A stretch of DNA of 64,000 nucleotides. Origin: Labilibaculum antarcticum (GTDB lineage: Bacteria > Bacteroidota > Bacteroidia > Bacteroidales > Marinifilaceae). Under the pieces are notes generated by a model. That model ran no database searches and had not been told where the DNA came from. It worked only from the letters and a program-made list of their open reading frames with translations. Of the stretch, positions 20,637-60,897 are shown piece after piece. The first letter of the stretch is position 1. Each line of letters begins with the position of its first letter. A program made the position numbers and the translations under genes. The stretch covers positions 4,558,361-4,622,360 of the forward strand of contig NZ_AP018042.1 in the NCBI RefSeq assembly GCF_002356295.1, given 5' to 3'.

Positions 20637-21269
20637 TCATTCATAATCCTCAATGAATTTTATCAACTGTTGATAATCTGTTATCCTTATTAAATCAGTT
20701 CGGTGACTGTTAAATATTAACTTATCGTACAAAATTGCTTTTATTCCTAATTCTTTAGCTGCTTGTATTTCTGAATTTGGGTCATCACCTACTACTATCA
20801 ACTCATTGGGTTGATACTGATGTCTTTCCATAATTTCAGCAAAAACTTCCTTTTTTGTTCTATTGTCCTTTTGTGGGTCTATGATGTAAATTTCATTGAA
20901 ATCTTCTTTTATTCCCAAATTTTTGACTTTCCCTTCTTGCATTTTTGTAAATCCGACTGTCACCAAAAATTTATCACAATCTAATTGTTTTGTGGAAATA
21001 TAATCTTCAAATGGGGTCATTCCCATATCAGCGGTCAATTCCTTAAGTATTTCAAATCCTTTTTTAATCAATGTTTCGGAAAGTTGATATTCTGAAGCAA
21101 CCTTTTGAAATGGTTTTCTCATAATATCTTTTTTTATACTTTCAATTTTATCATGTAAGTCAGGGTCATTCTGAAATAGATTAAATAATGGTTCAAATAA
21201 TTTATCACCAATAGAATATACTGAATAAATCGTGTTGTCTAAATCAAAGATTATTGCTTTTAATTTCAT
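20637..21269 (-). CDS. HAD-superfamily hydrolase
   Basis: A 210-residue protein from the ATG at 21269 (the longer frame starts at 21299, inside a dispersed repeat element). HAD motif I is AIIFDLDNTIY with the nucleophilic Asp and the +2 acid, motif II is in FLVTVGF, the Lys region in KNLGIKEDF, and motif IV is VVGDDPNSEIQAAKELG. A soluble cytosolic phosphatase-type enzyme with an alpha-helical cap; substrate not predictable. The start at 21269 puts the Asp motif close to the N-terminus as usual. Confidence 0.85.
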   Translation of the reverse strand: MKLKAIIFDLDNTIYSVYSIGDKLFEPLFNLFQNDPDLHDKIESIKKDIMRKPFQKVASEYQLSETLIKKGFEILKELTADMGMTPFEDYISTKQLDCDKFLVTVGFTKMQEGKVKNLGIKEDFNEIYIIDPQKDNRTKKEVFAEIMERHQYQPNELIVVGDDPNSEIQAAKELGIKAILYDKLIFNSHRTDLIRITDYQQLIKFIEDYE

Positions 21270-21296
21270 GTGTTTTTTTATTCGTTTTTTATTTGT

Positions 21297-21363
21297 CATA
21301 TGGAACTTACCATATAATCACCTCCCTGTGTGTAGAAAGCTTTATACATGGACGTTTCATATG
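21297..21363 (-). repeat. CATATG-bounded dispersed element, copy 1 (short form)
   Basis: 67 bp delimited by CATATG on both sides. Read on the minus strand it begins ATGAAACGTCCATG, has the core ACACAGGGAGGTGATTAT and ends CCATATG. It shares both ends and the core with two 89-bp copies at 60.3-60.5 kb but lacks their 18-bp palindrome. An 17-codon frame beginning MKRPC runs from 21360 to 21307. It lies directly upstream of the HAD gene. Confidence 0.65.
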
Positions 21364-23888: not shown

Positions 23889-23991
23889 TTTGTAAGTTGT
23901 TGTTATGTCCTGAAAGGACAAAATATAATAGCGATGGATTTTAATCCATCGAATAGGCGACCATCGAAAAAGGAATAGCCCTGAAAGGGCG
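23889..23991. repeat. REP-like 103-bp repeat, left copy beside transposase
   Basis: Contains three small palindromes in a row: GTCCTGAAAGGAC, GATGGATTTTAATCCATC and GCCCTGAAAGGGC. Differs from the copy at 24622-24724 by a single base. It abuts the 3' end of the transposase gene. This arrangement is typical of REP sequences mobilised or maintained by REP-associated tyrosine transposases. Confidence 0.85.
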
Positions 23992-23996
23992 AAATA

Positions 23997-24449
23997 TTAA
24001 TCCCAGATGTATCTCTCGTCATAATCGACCTTGTATTTTTTAAGAAAAGCACGGTATTCATCTTGAAAACTATGCTTCTTGTGATGCTGATGCTGGTTCT
24101 GTATATAGTCTCGAATGACATCCACCTCAGTTGGGTTTACCGAGAAGGCACCATAACCATCTTGCCAGTAAAAATGCGCCAATTCAGAGCTCTGCATTTT
24201 CATCCATCTCGACGATGATGTTTTGATGCGTTTGATAAGTTCTACCAAACTACTGTTTTTTGATAACATACAAAGTAGGTGAATATGATCGACATGACCT
24301 CCTACTATTAATATGGGACAACTAAGCTCATTACATGTTTTACCAAGATAGGCGTGCAGCTTTTCTTCGTGTGGGGAATGTATGAGCGCCTCACGATGTT
24401 TTGTGCTGAATACGATGTGAAGGTAGTTTTGTACTAATGATTGTCCCAT
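23997..24449 (-). CDS. HUH tyrosine transposase, IS200/IS605 or RAYT type
   Basis: A 150-residue Y1 transposase. The HUH motif is GGHVDHIHLL (His55, His57) and the catalytic tyrosine is Tyr115 in VIRDYIQNQ; FYWQDGYGAFSVN is also characteristic. Length is normal and the frame is intact. It cleaves and joins single-stranded DNA through a 5'-phosphotyrosine. No tnpB gene is present. Near-identical REP-like palindromic repeats stand on both sides, which favours a RAYT-like single-copy enzyme with its REPs over a classical IS200, whose ends would be unpaired hairpins. Confidence 0.9.
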   Translation of the reverse strand: MGQSLVQNYLHIVFSTKHREALIHSPHEEKLHAYLGKTCNELSCPILIVGGHVDHIHLLCMLSKNSSLVELIKRIKTSSSRWMKMQSSELAHFYWQDGYGAFSVNPTEVDVIRDYIQNQHQHHKKHSFQDEYRAFLKKYKVDYDERYIWD

Positions 24450-24522
24450 GATTATTTTATTTCGCCCTTTCAGGGCTTGTTTATTGGTCTTACTTCCCCG
24501 ATGGGATAAATCCCATCGTTAT

Positions 24523-24634
24523 TATATATCATTCCTTCGGAATTTGTCAATTCGCCTGCAAAGGCTTTATGTATTTTTTTTAGTAGTTCTACTAAATGCA
24601 TTTTCATTCACAGAATAGGTATTTGTAAGTTGTT
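24523..24634. repeat. B-type repeat next to transposase, copy 1
   Basis: Shares TATATATCAT, CCTTCGGAATTTGTCAATT, GCCTGCAAAGGCTTT, a T8-9 tract, TTTTCATTCA and GAATAGGT with 24746-24860. Includes a GCCTGCAAAGGC hairpin. Overlaps the start of the right REP copy. Confidence 0.7.
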
Positions 24635-38347: not shown

Positions 38348-38420
38348 TGATCCCTCTGGGGTTCGAACCCAGGACCCCATCATTAAAAGTGATGTGCTCT
38401 ACCAGCTGAGCTAAGGAATC
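38348..38420 (-). tRNA. tRNA-Lys(TTT), array copy 6 (last transcribed)
   Basis: 73 bases with D stem GCTC/GAGC, anticodon stem CATCA/TGATG with loop CTTTTAA (anticodon TTT), T arm CTGGG-TTCGAAC-CCCAG, and acceptor GATTCCT/AGGGATC with one G-U pair. Discriminator A, CCA not encoded. Identical to the other five copies. Confidence 0.95.
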
Positions 38421-38453
38421 ATCCTTATTTTTTGAAGACTTTGGTTGTCTTTG

Positions 38454-38526
38454 TGATCCCTCTGGGGTTCGAACCCAGGACCCCATCATTAAAAGTGATG
38501 TGCTCTACCAGCTGAGCTAAGGAATC
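38454..38526 (-). tRNA. tRNA-Lys(TTT), array copy 5
   Basis: Identical cloverleaf to the copy at 38348. Separated from it by a 33-base spacer (ATCCTTATTTTTTGAAGACT and following) that recurs between all copies. Confidence 0.95.
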
Positions 38527-38559
38527 ATCCTTATTTTTTGAAGACTTTGGTTGTCTTTG

Positions 38560-38632
38560 TGATCCCTCTGGGGTTCGAACCCAGGACCCCATCATTAAAA
38601 GTGATGTGCTCTACCAGCTGAGCTAAGGAATC
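38560..38632 (-). tRNA. tRNA-Lys(TTT), array copy 4
   Basis: Identical sequence, 106-bp period to the neighbouring copy on the lower-coordinate side. Confidence 0.95.
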
Positions 38633-38666
38633 ATCCTTATTTTTTGAAGACTTTGGTTGTCTTTTG

Positions 38667-38739
38667 TGATCCCTCTGGGGTTCGAACCCAGGACCCCATC
38701 ATTAAAAGTGATGTGCTCTACCAGCTGAGCTAAGGAATC
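38667..38739 (-). tRNA. tRNA-Lys(TTT), array copy 3
   Basis: Identical sequence; the spacer on its lower-coordinate side has one extra T (107-bp period). Confidence 0.95.
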
Positions 38740-38772
38740 ATCCTTATTTTTTGAAGACTTTGGTTGTCTTTG

Positions 38773-38845
38773 TGATCCCTCTGGGGTTCGAACCCAGGAC
38801 CCCATCATTAAAAGTGATGTGCTCTACCAGCTGAGCTAAGGAATC
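38773..38845 (-). tRNA. tRNA-Lys(TTT), array copy 2
   Basis: Identical sequence with the common 33-base spacer. Confidence 0.95.
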
Positions 38846-38879
38846 ATCCTTATTTTTTGAAGACTTTGGTTGTCTTTTG

Positions 38880-38952
38880 TGATCCCTCTGGGGTTCGAAC
38901 CCAGGACCCCATCATTAAAAGTGATGTGCTCTACCAGCTGAGCTAAGGAATC
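38880..38952 (-). tRNA. tRNA-Lys(TTT), array copy 1 (promoter-proximal)
   Basis: Identical sequence. Upstream (higher coordinates) the spacer homology stops and a promoter-like sequence begins. Confidence 0.95.
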
Positions 38953-53932: not shown

Positions 53933-54193
53933 CTATAGTTCTCTGCTTTTAAGTTCTTCATTAATAATGAATGCCTTTTTTGAAAACACATAAAGGATTG
54001 GAGATAAGATAAAAGGAGCTACAATAAACGAAAGTGATCCGGAATTGTTTATGCTAAGATATATTCCCAAACATAGAAGCATTATCAGCATTATTCCTAA
54101 TGCTATCGATGCAACTTTAATTGTTTTGGCTTCCAATTGAAGCTGTTCAGTACTTATTGTTTTTAGGTCTTTTTCTTTTGCGCTGAGTTTCAT
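53933..54193 (-). CDS. Small two-helix membrane protein, copy 1
   Basis: 86 residues with a charged N-terminus (MKLSAKEKDLK), two transmembrane helices (about 26-48 and 54-71) and a charged tail (KSREL). No known family recognised. Its ATG overlaps the TGA of the upstream TPR gene (ATGA), so the pair is translationally coupled. A second copy of the pair, clearly homologous, lies at 60.0-60.9 kb. Confidence 0.75.
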   Translation of the reverse strand: MKLSAKEKDLKTISTEQLQLEAKTIKVASIALGIMLIMLLCLGIYLSINNSGSLSFIVAPFILSPILYVFSKKAFIINEELKSREL

Positions 54194-54615
54194 ATTTTAC
54201 ATTTTAATGTTTCAATTTTCTCTTTTAATAAGTTTATTTTTGCTTCCGAACTTAAGGAGAATGTATTTGATGATTCTTCTGAAAACTCTAATAAAAGTAA
54301 CGACTTTTCGTAATAATTCAGACTGGTTTCCATATCATCTTTCACAAAATTGAGCTCTCCTTCGGCAAAGAAAAGTTCAGACAATATTTTCAAATGACCA
54401 TTCGTGTAATTGTGTTCGGTCAATAAATCAACGGTTAGTTTTTCTTTGGGAAGATTTCTGAAAAAGGAAGCATCTTTTTTTAGAAAGTCGTGATAAGCAT
54501 TTTCCAATAGGAGATTAGCTTGCTCTGGATCTCCGTCTTTAATTAAACCTAAAATTCGAGCAATAACCTCAGCTATCATCTGAATCATTCTCATTATAAA
54601 ATCTTTCTGGTACAT
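54190..54615 (-). CDS. Small TPR-like protein, copy 1
   Basis: 141 residues from the ATG at 54615, which aligns with the start of the second copy (MYQKDFIMRMI); the longer frame to 54672 is not conserved. Helical, with two TPR-like hairpins (LLENAYHDFLKKDASFFRNL and LKILSELFFAEGELNFVKDDMETSLNYYEKS; landmarks only). No membrane helix. It probably acts with the membrane protein encoded next to it; function unknown. Confidence 0.75.
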   Translation of the reverse strand: MYQKDFIMRMIQMIAEVIARILGLIKDGDPEQANLLLENAYHDFLKKDASFFRNLPKEKLTVDLLTEHNYTNGHLKILSELFFAEGELNFVKDDMETSLNYYEKSLLLLEFSEESSNTFSLSSEAKINLLKEKIETLKCKI

Positions 54616-60027: not shown

Positions 60028-60252
60028 CTATATTTCTCTGCTTTTAATTTCTTCAGTAATGGTGAATGTTTTTTTTGCAAACACATAAAGGATTGGAGAT
60101 AAGATAAAAGGAACTACAATAAACGAAAGTGATCCGAAATTGTTTATGCTAACATATATTCCCAAACATAGCAGTGTTATTAGCATTATTCCTAATGCTA
60201 ATAATGCAGCTTTAATTGTTTTTAGGTTCTCTTCTTTTCTGCTAAATTTCAT
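60028..60252 (-). CDS. Small two-helix membrane protein, copy 2
   Basis: 74 residues from the ATG at 60252 (the longer frame to 60318 is read through a repeat element). Same two transmembrane helices and similar charged N-terminus and tail as the copy at 53933 (ALGIMLITLLCLGIYVSINN; IVVPFILSPILYVF), but about 12 residues shorter between the N-terminal charge cluster and the first helix. Its ATG overlaps the TGA of a small frame in the element upstream. Confidence 0.72.
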   Translation of the reverse strand: MKFSRKEENLKTIKAALLALGIMLITLLCLGIYVSINNFGSLSFIVVPFILSPILYVFAKKTFTITEEIKSREI

Positions 60253-60365
60253 ATGATTATAATTTGTTTTTTTAGTTGCCATATGGTCCCGAAAGCTTTC
60301 GGGATTACTATGCTGCAATAATCATCCCCCTGTGTGTCACAATCACTTTGGCATGGACGTTTCAT
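60249..60365 (-). CDS. Possible small ORF B in the CATATG element (38 residues)
   Basis: Frame beginning MKRPCQSDCD and continuing through the palindrome (VIPKAFGTIWQ). Its start codon overlaps the TGA of ORF A and its stop overlaps the ATG of the membrane-protein gene (ATGA both times). There is no evidence of a protein product; the frame could be a by-product of the element's symmetry, but the precise coupling is notable. Confidence 0.3.
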   Translation of the reverse strand: MKRPCQSDCDTQGDDYCSIVIPKAFGTIWQLKKQIIII

Positions 60366-60368
60366 ATG
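60280..60368 (-). repeat. CATATG-bounded dispersed element, copy 2
   Basis: 89 bp with CATATG at both edges. Minus strand: ATGAAACGTCCATGCCAAAG, core ACACAGGGGGATGATTAT, then TCCCGAAAGCTTTCGGGA (perfect 18-bp palindrome), then CCATATG. Directly downstream on the minus strand lies ORF B's end and the membrane-protein start. Confidence 0.75.
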
Positions 60369-60475
60369 TTTATAATTTTAAGTTTTTGCCATATGGTCCC
60401 GAAAGCTTTCGGGATTACCATGCTGGAATAATCATCCTCCTGTGTGTCAAAATCCCTTTGGCATGGACGTTTCAT
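60362..60475 (-). CDS. Possible small ORF A in the CATATG element (37 residues)
   Basis: Frame beginning MKRPCQRDFD, overlapping the TGA of the TPR gene by ATGA and ending in a TGA that overlaps ORF B's ATG. Residues 15-30 (DYSSMVIPKAFGTIWQ) match ORF B closely. Coding status unproven. Confidence 0.3.
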   Translation of the reverse strand: MKRPCQRDFDTQEDDYSSMVIPKAFGTIWQKLKIINI

Positions 60476-60478
60476 ATT
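60390..60478 (-). repeat. CATATG-bounded dispersed element, copy 3
   Basis: 89 bp, ~90 percent identical by eye to copy 2, 21 bp from it, same orientation. The core reads ACACAGGAGGATGATTAT and the same 18-bp palindrome is present. The right edge is CATATT, i.e. the position where copy 1 of the gene pair has its start codon region. Confidence 0.75.
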
Positions 60479-60897
60479 TTAAATTTTAATGTTTCAATTT
60501 TTGCTTTTAATAAGTTTGTTTTTGCTTCCGAACTTAAGGAGAATGTATTTGATGATTCTTCTGAAAATTCTAATATCAGTAACGACTTTTCGTAATAATT
60601 CAGACTGGTCTCCATATCACCTTTCGCGAAATTCAGTTCCCCTTCTGCAAAAAAAAGTTCCGATAATATTTTCAAATGACCATTCGTGTAATTGTGTTCT
60701 GTCAGCAATTTATTAGTTAGTTTCTCTTTGGGAAGATTTCTGAAAAAGGAAGCATCTTCTTTTAAAAAATCACGATAGGCATTCTCTAATAATTTAGATG
60801 CTTGTGGTAAATCTCCTTTTTTAATCAAACCCAAAAGGAGAGCAATCAAATCTGCAATCATTTCGATCATGCGCATTATAAAATCTTTCTGGTACAT
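60472..60897 (-). CDS. Small TPR-like protein, copy 2
   Basis: 141 residues, same length as copy 1 at 54190 and about 85 percent identical by eye (MYQKDFIMRMI start, LTEHNYTNGHLKILSELFF, EFSEESSNTFSLSSEAK). Intact. In copy 1 its TGA directly overlaps the membrane-protein ATG; here two CATATG elements are inserted between the two genes. Function unknown. Confidence 0.75.
   Translation of the reverse strand: MYQKDFIMRMIEMIADLIALLLGLIKKGDLPQASKLLENAYRDFLKEDASFFRNLPKEKLTNKLLTEHNYTNGHLKILSELFFAEGELNFAKGDMETSLNYYEKSLLILEFSEESSNTFSLSSEAKTNLLKAKIETLKFKI

Follow-up and report, generated by a model that had tools for sequence, protein, structure and literature searches.

Mobile DNA mostly survives by avoiding genes. 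The family of short repeats that we explore here, found in Labilibaculum antarcticum, appears to target a gene's most sensitive point, rebuilding what it breaks. Its parts resemble known short non-autonomous elements; the insertion site and the way in which the host is spared are unusual. Among the closest known systems are the IS200/IS605 family (IS608, ISDra2) and its short derivatives, for which the orientation, target and guide pairing used in our comparison are those described in the accessible portion of PMC5934647. With these the element shares a fixed orientation to the target, the lack of visible terminal inverted repeats, a short adjacent target, a preference for the base after that target, and an internal sequence that pairs with the end. 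It differs from them in that no tnpA with the element's ends was found at the loci scanned, in that no clear hairpin lies between the internal guide and the right end, and in that its target is a start codon, to which it brings a translation-start region of its own. Like the REP and REPIN sequences that go with RAYTs it is short, non-coding and multicopy and has palindromic parts, but it was not seen beside a RAYT gene here, lies mostly at gene starts and uses ATG as its site. Classic MITEs are likewise short, non-autonomous and present in many copies; unlike them, the element keeps one orientation relative to its target and has no terminal inverted repeats, as judged by eye from AAACGTCC... 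against the reverse complement of ...AAACAT. Rickettsia palindromic elements are, according to the available part of the MITE review PMC10969869, also tolerated in translated regions. Many of them, however, insert in frame inside open reading frames and encode a conserved peptide, whereas the element encodes none and adds nothing to the protein. The term 'start codon' has no occurrence in the main text of that review, and no earlier description of a start-codon-specific element was found in the literature searched, most subscription papers being outside its scope.

The locus lies in a window, the whole stretch of 64,000 nucleotides that was analysed, which also holds a paralogous gene pair and a third copy of the element. 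The original prediction stated that the genes of one pair overlap as ATGA, that two elements separate the genes of the other pair with every junction still reading ATGA, and that a shorter copy precedes a HAD gene. The features concerned are:

60475..60897, minus strand: gene of 141 aa, upstream in the filled pair, without a Pfam match
60366..60475, minus strand: element copy 1 (110 nt), directly 3' of the upstream gene, its first ATGA being that gene's stop
60253..60365, minus strand: element copy 2 (113 nt), in tandem with copy 1, its end abutting the downstream start codon at 60252
60397..60414: optional hairpin TCCCGAAAGCTTTCGGGA in copy 1, present in only some family copies
60287..60304: optional hairpin TCCCGAAAGCTTTCGGGA in copy 2, present in only some family copies
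60280..60285, minus strand: internal CATATG of copy 2, the counterpart in the start-codon stem of the terminal one at 60250-60255
60250..60255, minus strand: terminal CATATG of copy 2, containing the downstream gene's start codon (ATG, 60252..60250)
60028..60252, minus strand: gene of 74 aa, downstream in the filled pair, without a Pfam match
53933..54615, minus strand: paralogous pair without the element, an empty site, with its ATGA overlap at 54190-54193
21270..21360, minus strand: element copy 3 (91 nt), ending at the ATG of the HAD-family gene, 21269
20637..21269, minus strand: HAD-family gene, stop codon included, with its start codon at the end of copy 3

Inspection of the window sequence bore out both gene pairs and their ATGA junctions, and ATGAAACGTCCATG occurs there exactly three times. 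The copy upstream of the HAD gene is present, but the position first given for it, 21297, omits the A-rich end of the element, which spans 21360..21270. The HAD assignment was confirmed (PF13419, E 1.3e-16); the labels 'TPR' and 'membrane protein' for the products of the gene pair were not confirmed, Pfam returning 0 families for either protein at E<=0.001.

Read in the direction of the gene, the element begins with ATGAAACGTCCATG, continues through ...ACACAGG..GATGATTAT... and ...CATGGTAAGTTCCATATGG to an A-rich stretch, and ends in CATATGAAA, whose final ATG opens either the next element or the gene. A search of the genome, which had been proposed as a check, turned up many further copies and none of the reversed pattern: the first 14 bases have 41 exact sites and 53 sites with at most one mismatch, and the copy number is far from chance because the reversed control gave 0 sites. 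Together with four more diverged copies the genome total is about 57. Copies are mostly 88-120 nt long, with a full spread of about 82 to 122 nt that is due to an extra hairpin (TCCCGAAAGCTTTCGGGA or TCTCCCGATAAATTCGGGACAGGC) in some of them. Tandem copies occur at six places in the own genome, one relative has as many as four in succession, and arrays that mix element subtypes exist. No autonomous long copy was seen among 49 right-end matches in the own genome, compared by eye with the known sites; the sole new place from that search, near 4425471, holds a short copy with a diverged left end. A viral contigs database contained 0 stretches of the element, and Rfam 0 matches to it (the window at gathering scores, six copy loci at E<=0.1). 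Possible solo right ends, perhaps remnants, are seen in native leaders near genome positions 5395349, 4464481 and 983470, and also at locus L294.

Filled sites were compared with their empty counterparts. For ten sites the joined flanks were looked for within the genus; in seven cases a relative or a paralogue could be aligned over the join, and these seven comparisons place the insertion at the start codon. For an eighth site, 4407015, one relative is merely without the element, a weak case because the relative's upstream DNA did not align, and the empty-site searches in the genus for 4085881 and 5341321 gave nothing informative. At 5696202 six relatives are empty and read ...GCAT/ATGAATATTTGG or close to it (slashes mark the joins), where the own genome reads ...GCAT/ATGAAACG...AATCAT/ATGAATATTTGG. 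At 3377004 five relatives are empty, and the own genome and two relatives are filled, each by a different subtype. Three relatives and a paralogue in the own genome are empty at 795404, where three relatives read ...AAGAT/ATGCAACC, and therefore codon 2 stays with the gene. In the window, the pair at 53933-54615 is the empty version of the filled pair described above. The filled and empty pairs show precise insertion next to a short target, with no duplication beyond it. At 4936919 exactly ATG is common to both junctions, and this shared ATG could be the target or a duplication. An ATG at both ends could be the 3-bp duplication made by a DDE transposase; the single orientation argues against this.

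Position relative to genes was scored for 123 copies in 123 loci, 39 tandem joints and one edge copy having been set aside. Ninety-seven lie in frame at or near a predicted gene start, 24 are intergenic and 2 are inside a gene; genes were called by a simple script, and some of the 24 intergenic copies probably precede short genes. Two controls were used, namely the remaining ATGAAA of these loci (136 at starts, 190 intergenic and 798 within genes) and a 400-kb genome sample of 20 even blocks, not cleared of elements and with at least one copy within it, which gave 64/122/461 for ATGAAA and 24/30/87 for TATGAAA in the same order. The start versus intergenic contrast favours the copies over the same-locus control (OR 5.6, p 1.6e-13) as well as over the genome sample (OR 7.7, p 1.5e-15 for ATGAAA; OR 5.1, p 5.7e-6 for TATGAAA), the p values being too small because orthologous copies in different species were counted apart. 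In line with the original prediction, copies are thus not placed at random with respect to start codons, yet 26 of the 123 are off recognised gene starts. At start-type sites the element reads in sense with the gene. Nine downstream proteins were scanned against Pfam: eight belong to different families (HAD, response regulator, dUTPase, NTP transferase, LMW phosphatase, ROK, enoyl-CoA hydratase and Usp) and one has no match, nor has the one upstream protein scanned. The sense strand is on the lagging template in 38 of 57 copies (hand tally, p 0.016 against one half, assuming that GC-skew turning points mark origin and terminus), a bias that decides nothing because genes lean the same way.

The flanks of the copies define the target further. 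T precedes the left ATG in 104 of the 111 CAT-ended first copies, against 11 of the 36 with other ends (p 9e-14). AAA is the second codon in 109 of 127 non-tandem copies, compared with 88 of 384 native genes; the remaining flank positions resemble ordinary gene starts. At bases 4-6 of the left junction 176/176 copies read AAA, even where the gene has another codon 2, a count that stems partly from the search, which needs a near-match to the left end. Judged from these junctions, the preferred site is T-ATG-AAA and the break falls within or beside the ATG, with a preference at -1 that varies by subtype. The relatives' empty sites lack T at -1 in two of the seven comparisons (3377004 and 3921948). 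Copies ending in CAG most often have C at -1 (10/23), and G, which is expected from internal-guide pairing, in 2/23; among those ending in CAC a C-ATG target is found in 1/9. The CATG near the left end can, as its sequence reads, pair with the target TATG, and the -1 base varies by subtype in a way that the right guide does not predict.

The element is multicopy, is absent from orthologous and paralogous sites, joins at ATG and prefers T-ATG-AAA. On sequence comparison it is very probably a non-autonomous, non-coding mobile element specific to start codons, and the idea that a small mobile element at start codons regenerates both stop and start agrees with the genome-wide copies, the empty sites and the enrichment at gene starts over controls. 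On this reading it inserts at the start codon. The left junction retains an ATG, the ATGA of which preserves the stop of an overlapping upstream gene. At the right junction the terminal CAN-ATG is the start codon of the gene, behind an A-rich translation-start region carried by the element. We take the left ATG as the original one, the sequence fitting either.

The last 30 nt of the element resemble the A-rich translation-start region of the host. In 78 element-preceded genes A reaches 88-91% at -11 to -13, against 55-62% in 384 native genes; at position -3 native genes favour A (57%) and the element has C (86%). Bacteroidetes are without Shine-Dalgarno sequences, and in Flavobacterium initiation benefits from an A at -3, as stated in the accessible part of PMC6847099. 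The element would then be neutral for translation, and its insertion nearly neutral for both genes; therefore copies would survive and could stack in tandem. With well over a hundred copies, the family offers a natural set of 5' leader replacements for the study of translation start in non-Shine-Dalgarno bacteria.

Pairing between the internal and the terminal CATATG was evaluated in 56 diverse copies; the counts come from these related copies, and the positions listed for copy 2 were read off its sequence. The six pairs are standard in 97.6% of cells. One pair changes from A-U to C-G (10) or G-C (3) and another from G-C to A-U (2), and these 15 two-sided changes in 56 rows demonstrate CATATG/CATATG pairing. 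Taken over the whole structure, the observed cells paired, two-sided cells and covariation score are each attained in 0 of 500 shuffles, and the number of pairs with two-sided changes in 1/500. Further pair types are no more numerous than in shuffles, 467/500 of which have as many, and with each distinct hexamer combination counted once the start-codon stem does not reach significance (446/5000 shuffles). RNAalifold predicts the CATATG helix alone, and the outer left stem has little covariation (79/2000 shuffles reach it). Folded as single-strand DNA, the two commonest subtypes do no better than shuffles (z -0.10 and 0.22); subterminal hairpins are clear in two of four sequences folded in this way and the right-end hairpin is poor. 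Folded as RNA, three sequences, two of which are composites, adopt a common layout in which the 3' strand of a stem contains the start codon (z -0.87, -2.30 and -3.86). The CATATG stem could be kept by DNA pairing during transposition or by RNA structure around the start codon.

A reading that builds on RNA would make the family a regulatory leader, like a riboswitch or thermometer, whose stem hides the start codon and which recombination has spread for its regulation of downstream genes. The layout common to the three RNA folds fits such a leader, as does the copy preceding the enoyl-CoA hydratase gene in six genomes, with stems kept and loops diverged by eye. We nevertheless consider it unlikely, given that the downstream genes are unrelated (eight different Pfam families and one protein without match, of nine), that orthologues can be without the element, that tandem arrays mix subtypes and insertions occur outside recognised gene starts, and that the element has no Rfam match. 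Small translationally coupled peptide genes in operons, the 'MKRPC peptides' as which the open frames of copies 1 and 2 (ORF A and ORF B) had been put forward, are hardly credible. The frames of these two copies do run uninterrupted through 37 and 38 codons, each closing in the ATGA of the following start, but across the family many frames stop after 4, 5, 9, 13, 14, 17 or 19 codons and copy lengths fall in all three frames. The MKRPC frame is not conserved across copies, therefore this is not a peptide family, and for the entire family the reading is refuted. Small 'MKRPC' proteins that gene prediction derives from element copies are likely artefacts.

For the start-codon-specific mobile element, which is thus the preferred reading, the fixed orientation, the lack of terminal inverted repeats, the exact join and the internal-end pairing point to single-strand transposition of the IS200/IS605 kind. 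A HUH/Y1-type single-strand transposase acting in trans is our tentative candidate, at somewhat short of an even chance. The internal CATATG might then pair with the terminal cleavage site, and the CATG near the left end might read the target TATG, as guides do in IS608. Within 1.5 kb on either side of the six Y1 genes of the own genome only short partial matches to the element were found (best E 0.011, in the AT-rich right end), and among 27 of the 43 Y1 matches in other genomes of the genus no gene with the element's ends was present; a lone near-match to the left end in those 27 loci falls in a place that reads as coding. Mobilisation as the REP/REPIN of a resident RAYT (TnpA-REP) draws on the same six genes and on the view that REPs are mobilised in trans by TnpA-REP (PMC8266576, in part), but next to the own Y1 genes one sees, by eye, other palindromes rather than the element, and no copies stand beside a RAYT gene at the 6 own and 27 other genus loci. 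Moreover, the cleavage of TnpA-REP proteins at CT or CA dinucleotides and their use of GTAG, as given in the available part of PMC8266576, do not fit an ATG site, which leaves this origin very improbable. A tyrosine or small serine recombinase that works through a circle, with a short core TATGAAA common to circle junction and target, is rather doubtful. It would explain why the target TATGAAA is the same seven bases as in the joined ends CA-TATGAAA-CG, and the fixed orientation and the tandem insertions suit it. Against it, AAA stands at the left junction throughout (176/176, a count that leans on the near-match demanded by the search), and its being kept despite another codon 2 in the gene implies exchange within or beside the ATG rather than across seven bases; nor do CAG- and CAC-ended copies prefer G-ATG (2/23) and C-ATG (1/9).

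It is possible, though less likely than not, that Bacteroidota have a new transposition system in which start codons are targeted by nucleic-acid pairing, with a guide complementary to CAN-ATG and a cut within the start codon. The element would provide a fresh start codon together with an initiation region, and could therefore enter essential genes and tightly coupled operons with the proteins unchanged. If the guide is read correctly, it would be a natural tool for placing DNA precisely ahead of open reading frames.

Matches to the element were found in 8/8 other Labilibaculum genomes searched, in 4/26 other genomes of the family (two genera) and in 1/24 other genomes of the order, where the one match does not look like a copy. 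A scan of named genomes gave at least 120 stretches; among the matches listed, 76 of 80 were from Labilibaculum or Marinifilaceae and four carried other names, these four genomes having 5, 2, 1 and 1 pattern sites, plus two diverged copies in the first. In these four genomes little beyond the first ~45 bases is generally retained, although the whole layout is seen in two copies, and 7 of 11 copies end, by eye, in CANATG. A search of 247 genomes of the order matched only the own genome; as the sample excludes those family members that hold copies, this indicates no more than rarity of the element within the order. In JC017 (L158, L265, L278, L280) and UBA10471 (L174, L272) low-complexity repeats (CTCTGTG..., CACATAG...) stand between the conserved 5' part and the start codon.

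Some further observations were made along the way. The copy at the enoyl-CoA hydratase gene (L048; relatives L309, L303, L310, L298 and L290) has, by eye, retained both stems while its loops have drifted apart, as though a function had been acquired. Between positions 23906 and 24544 of the window, a Y1 transposase-like gene (match 24093-24431, minus strand) lies between inverted matches to the Rfam family 'Acido-Lenti-1' (23906-23951, minus strand; 24499-24544, plus strand), which suggests that this Rfam 'sRNA' may be the REP pair of a RAYT. Finally, the window contains at 38348-38952, on the minus strand, six tRNA matches of the same score in a row, spaced by about 106 nt.
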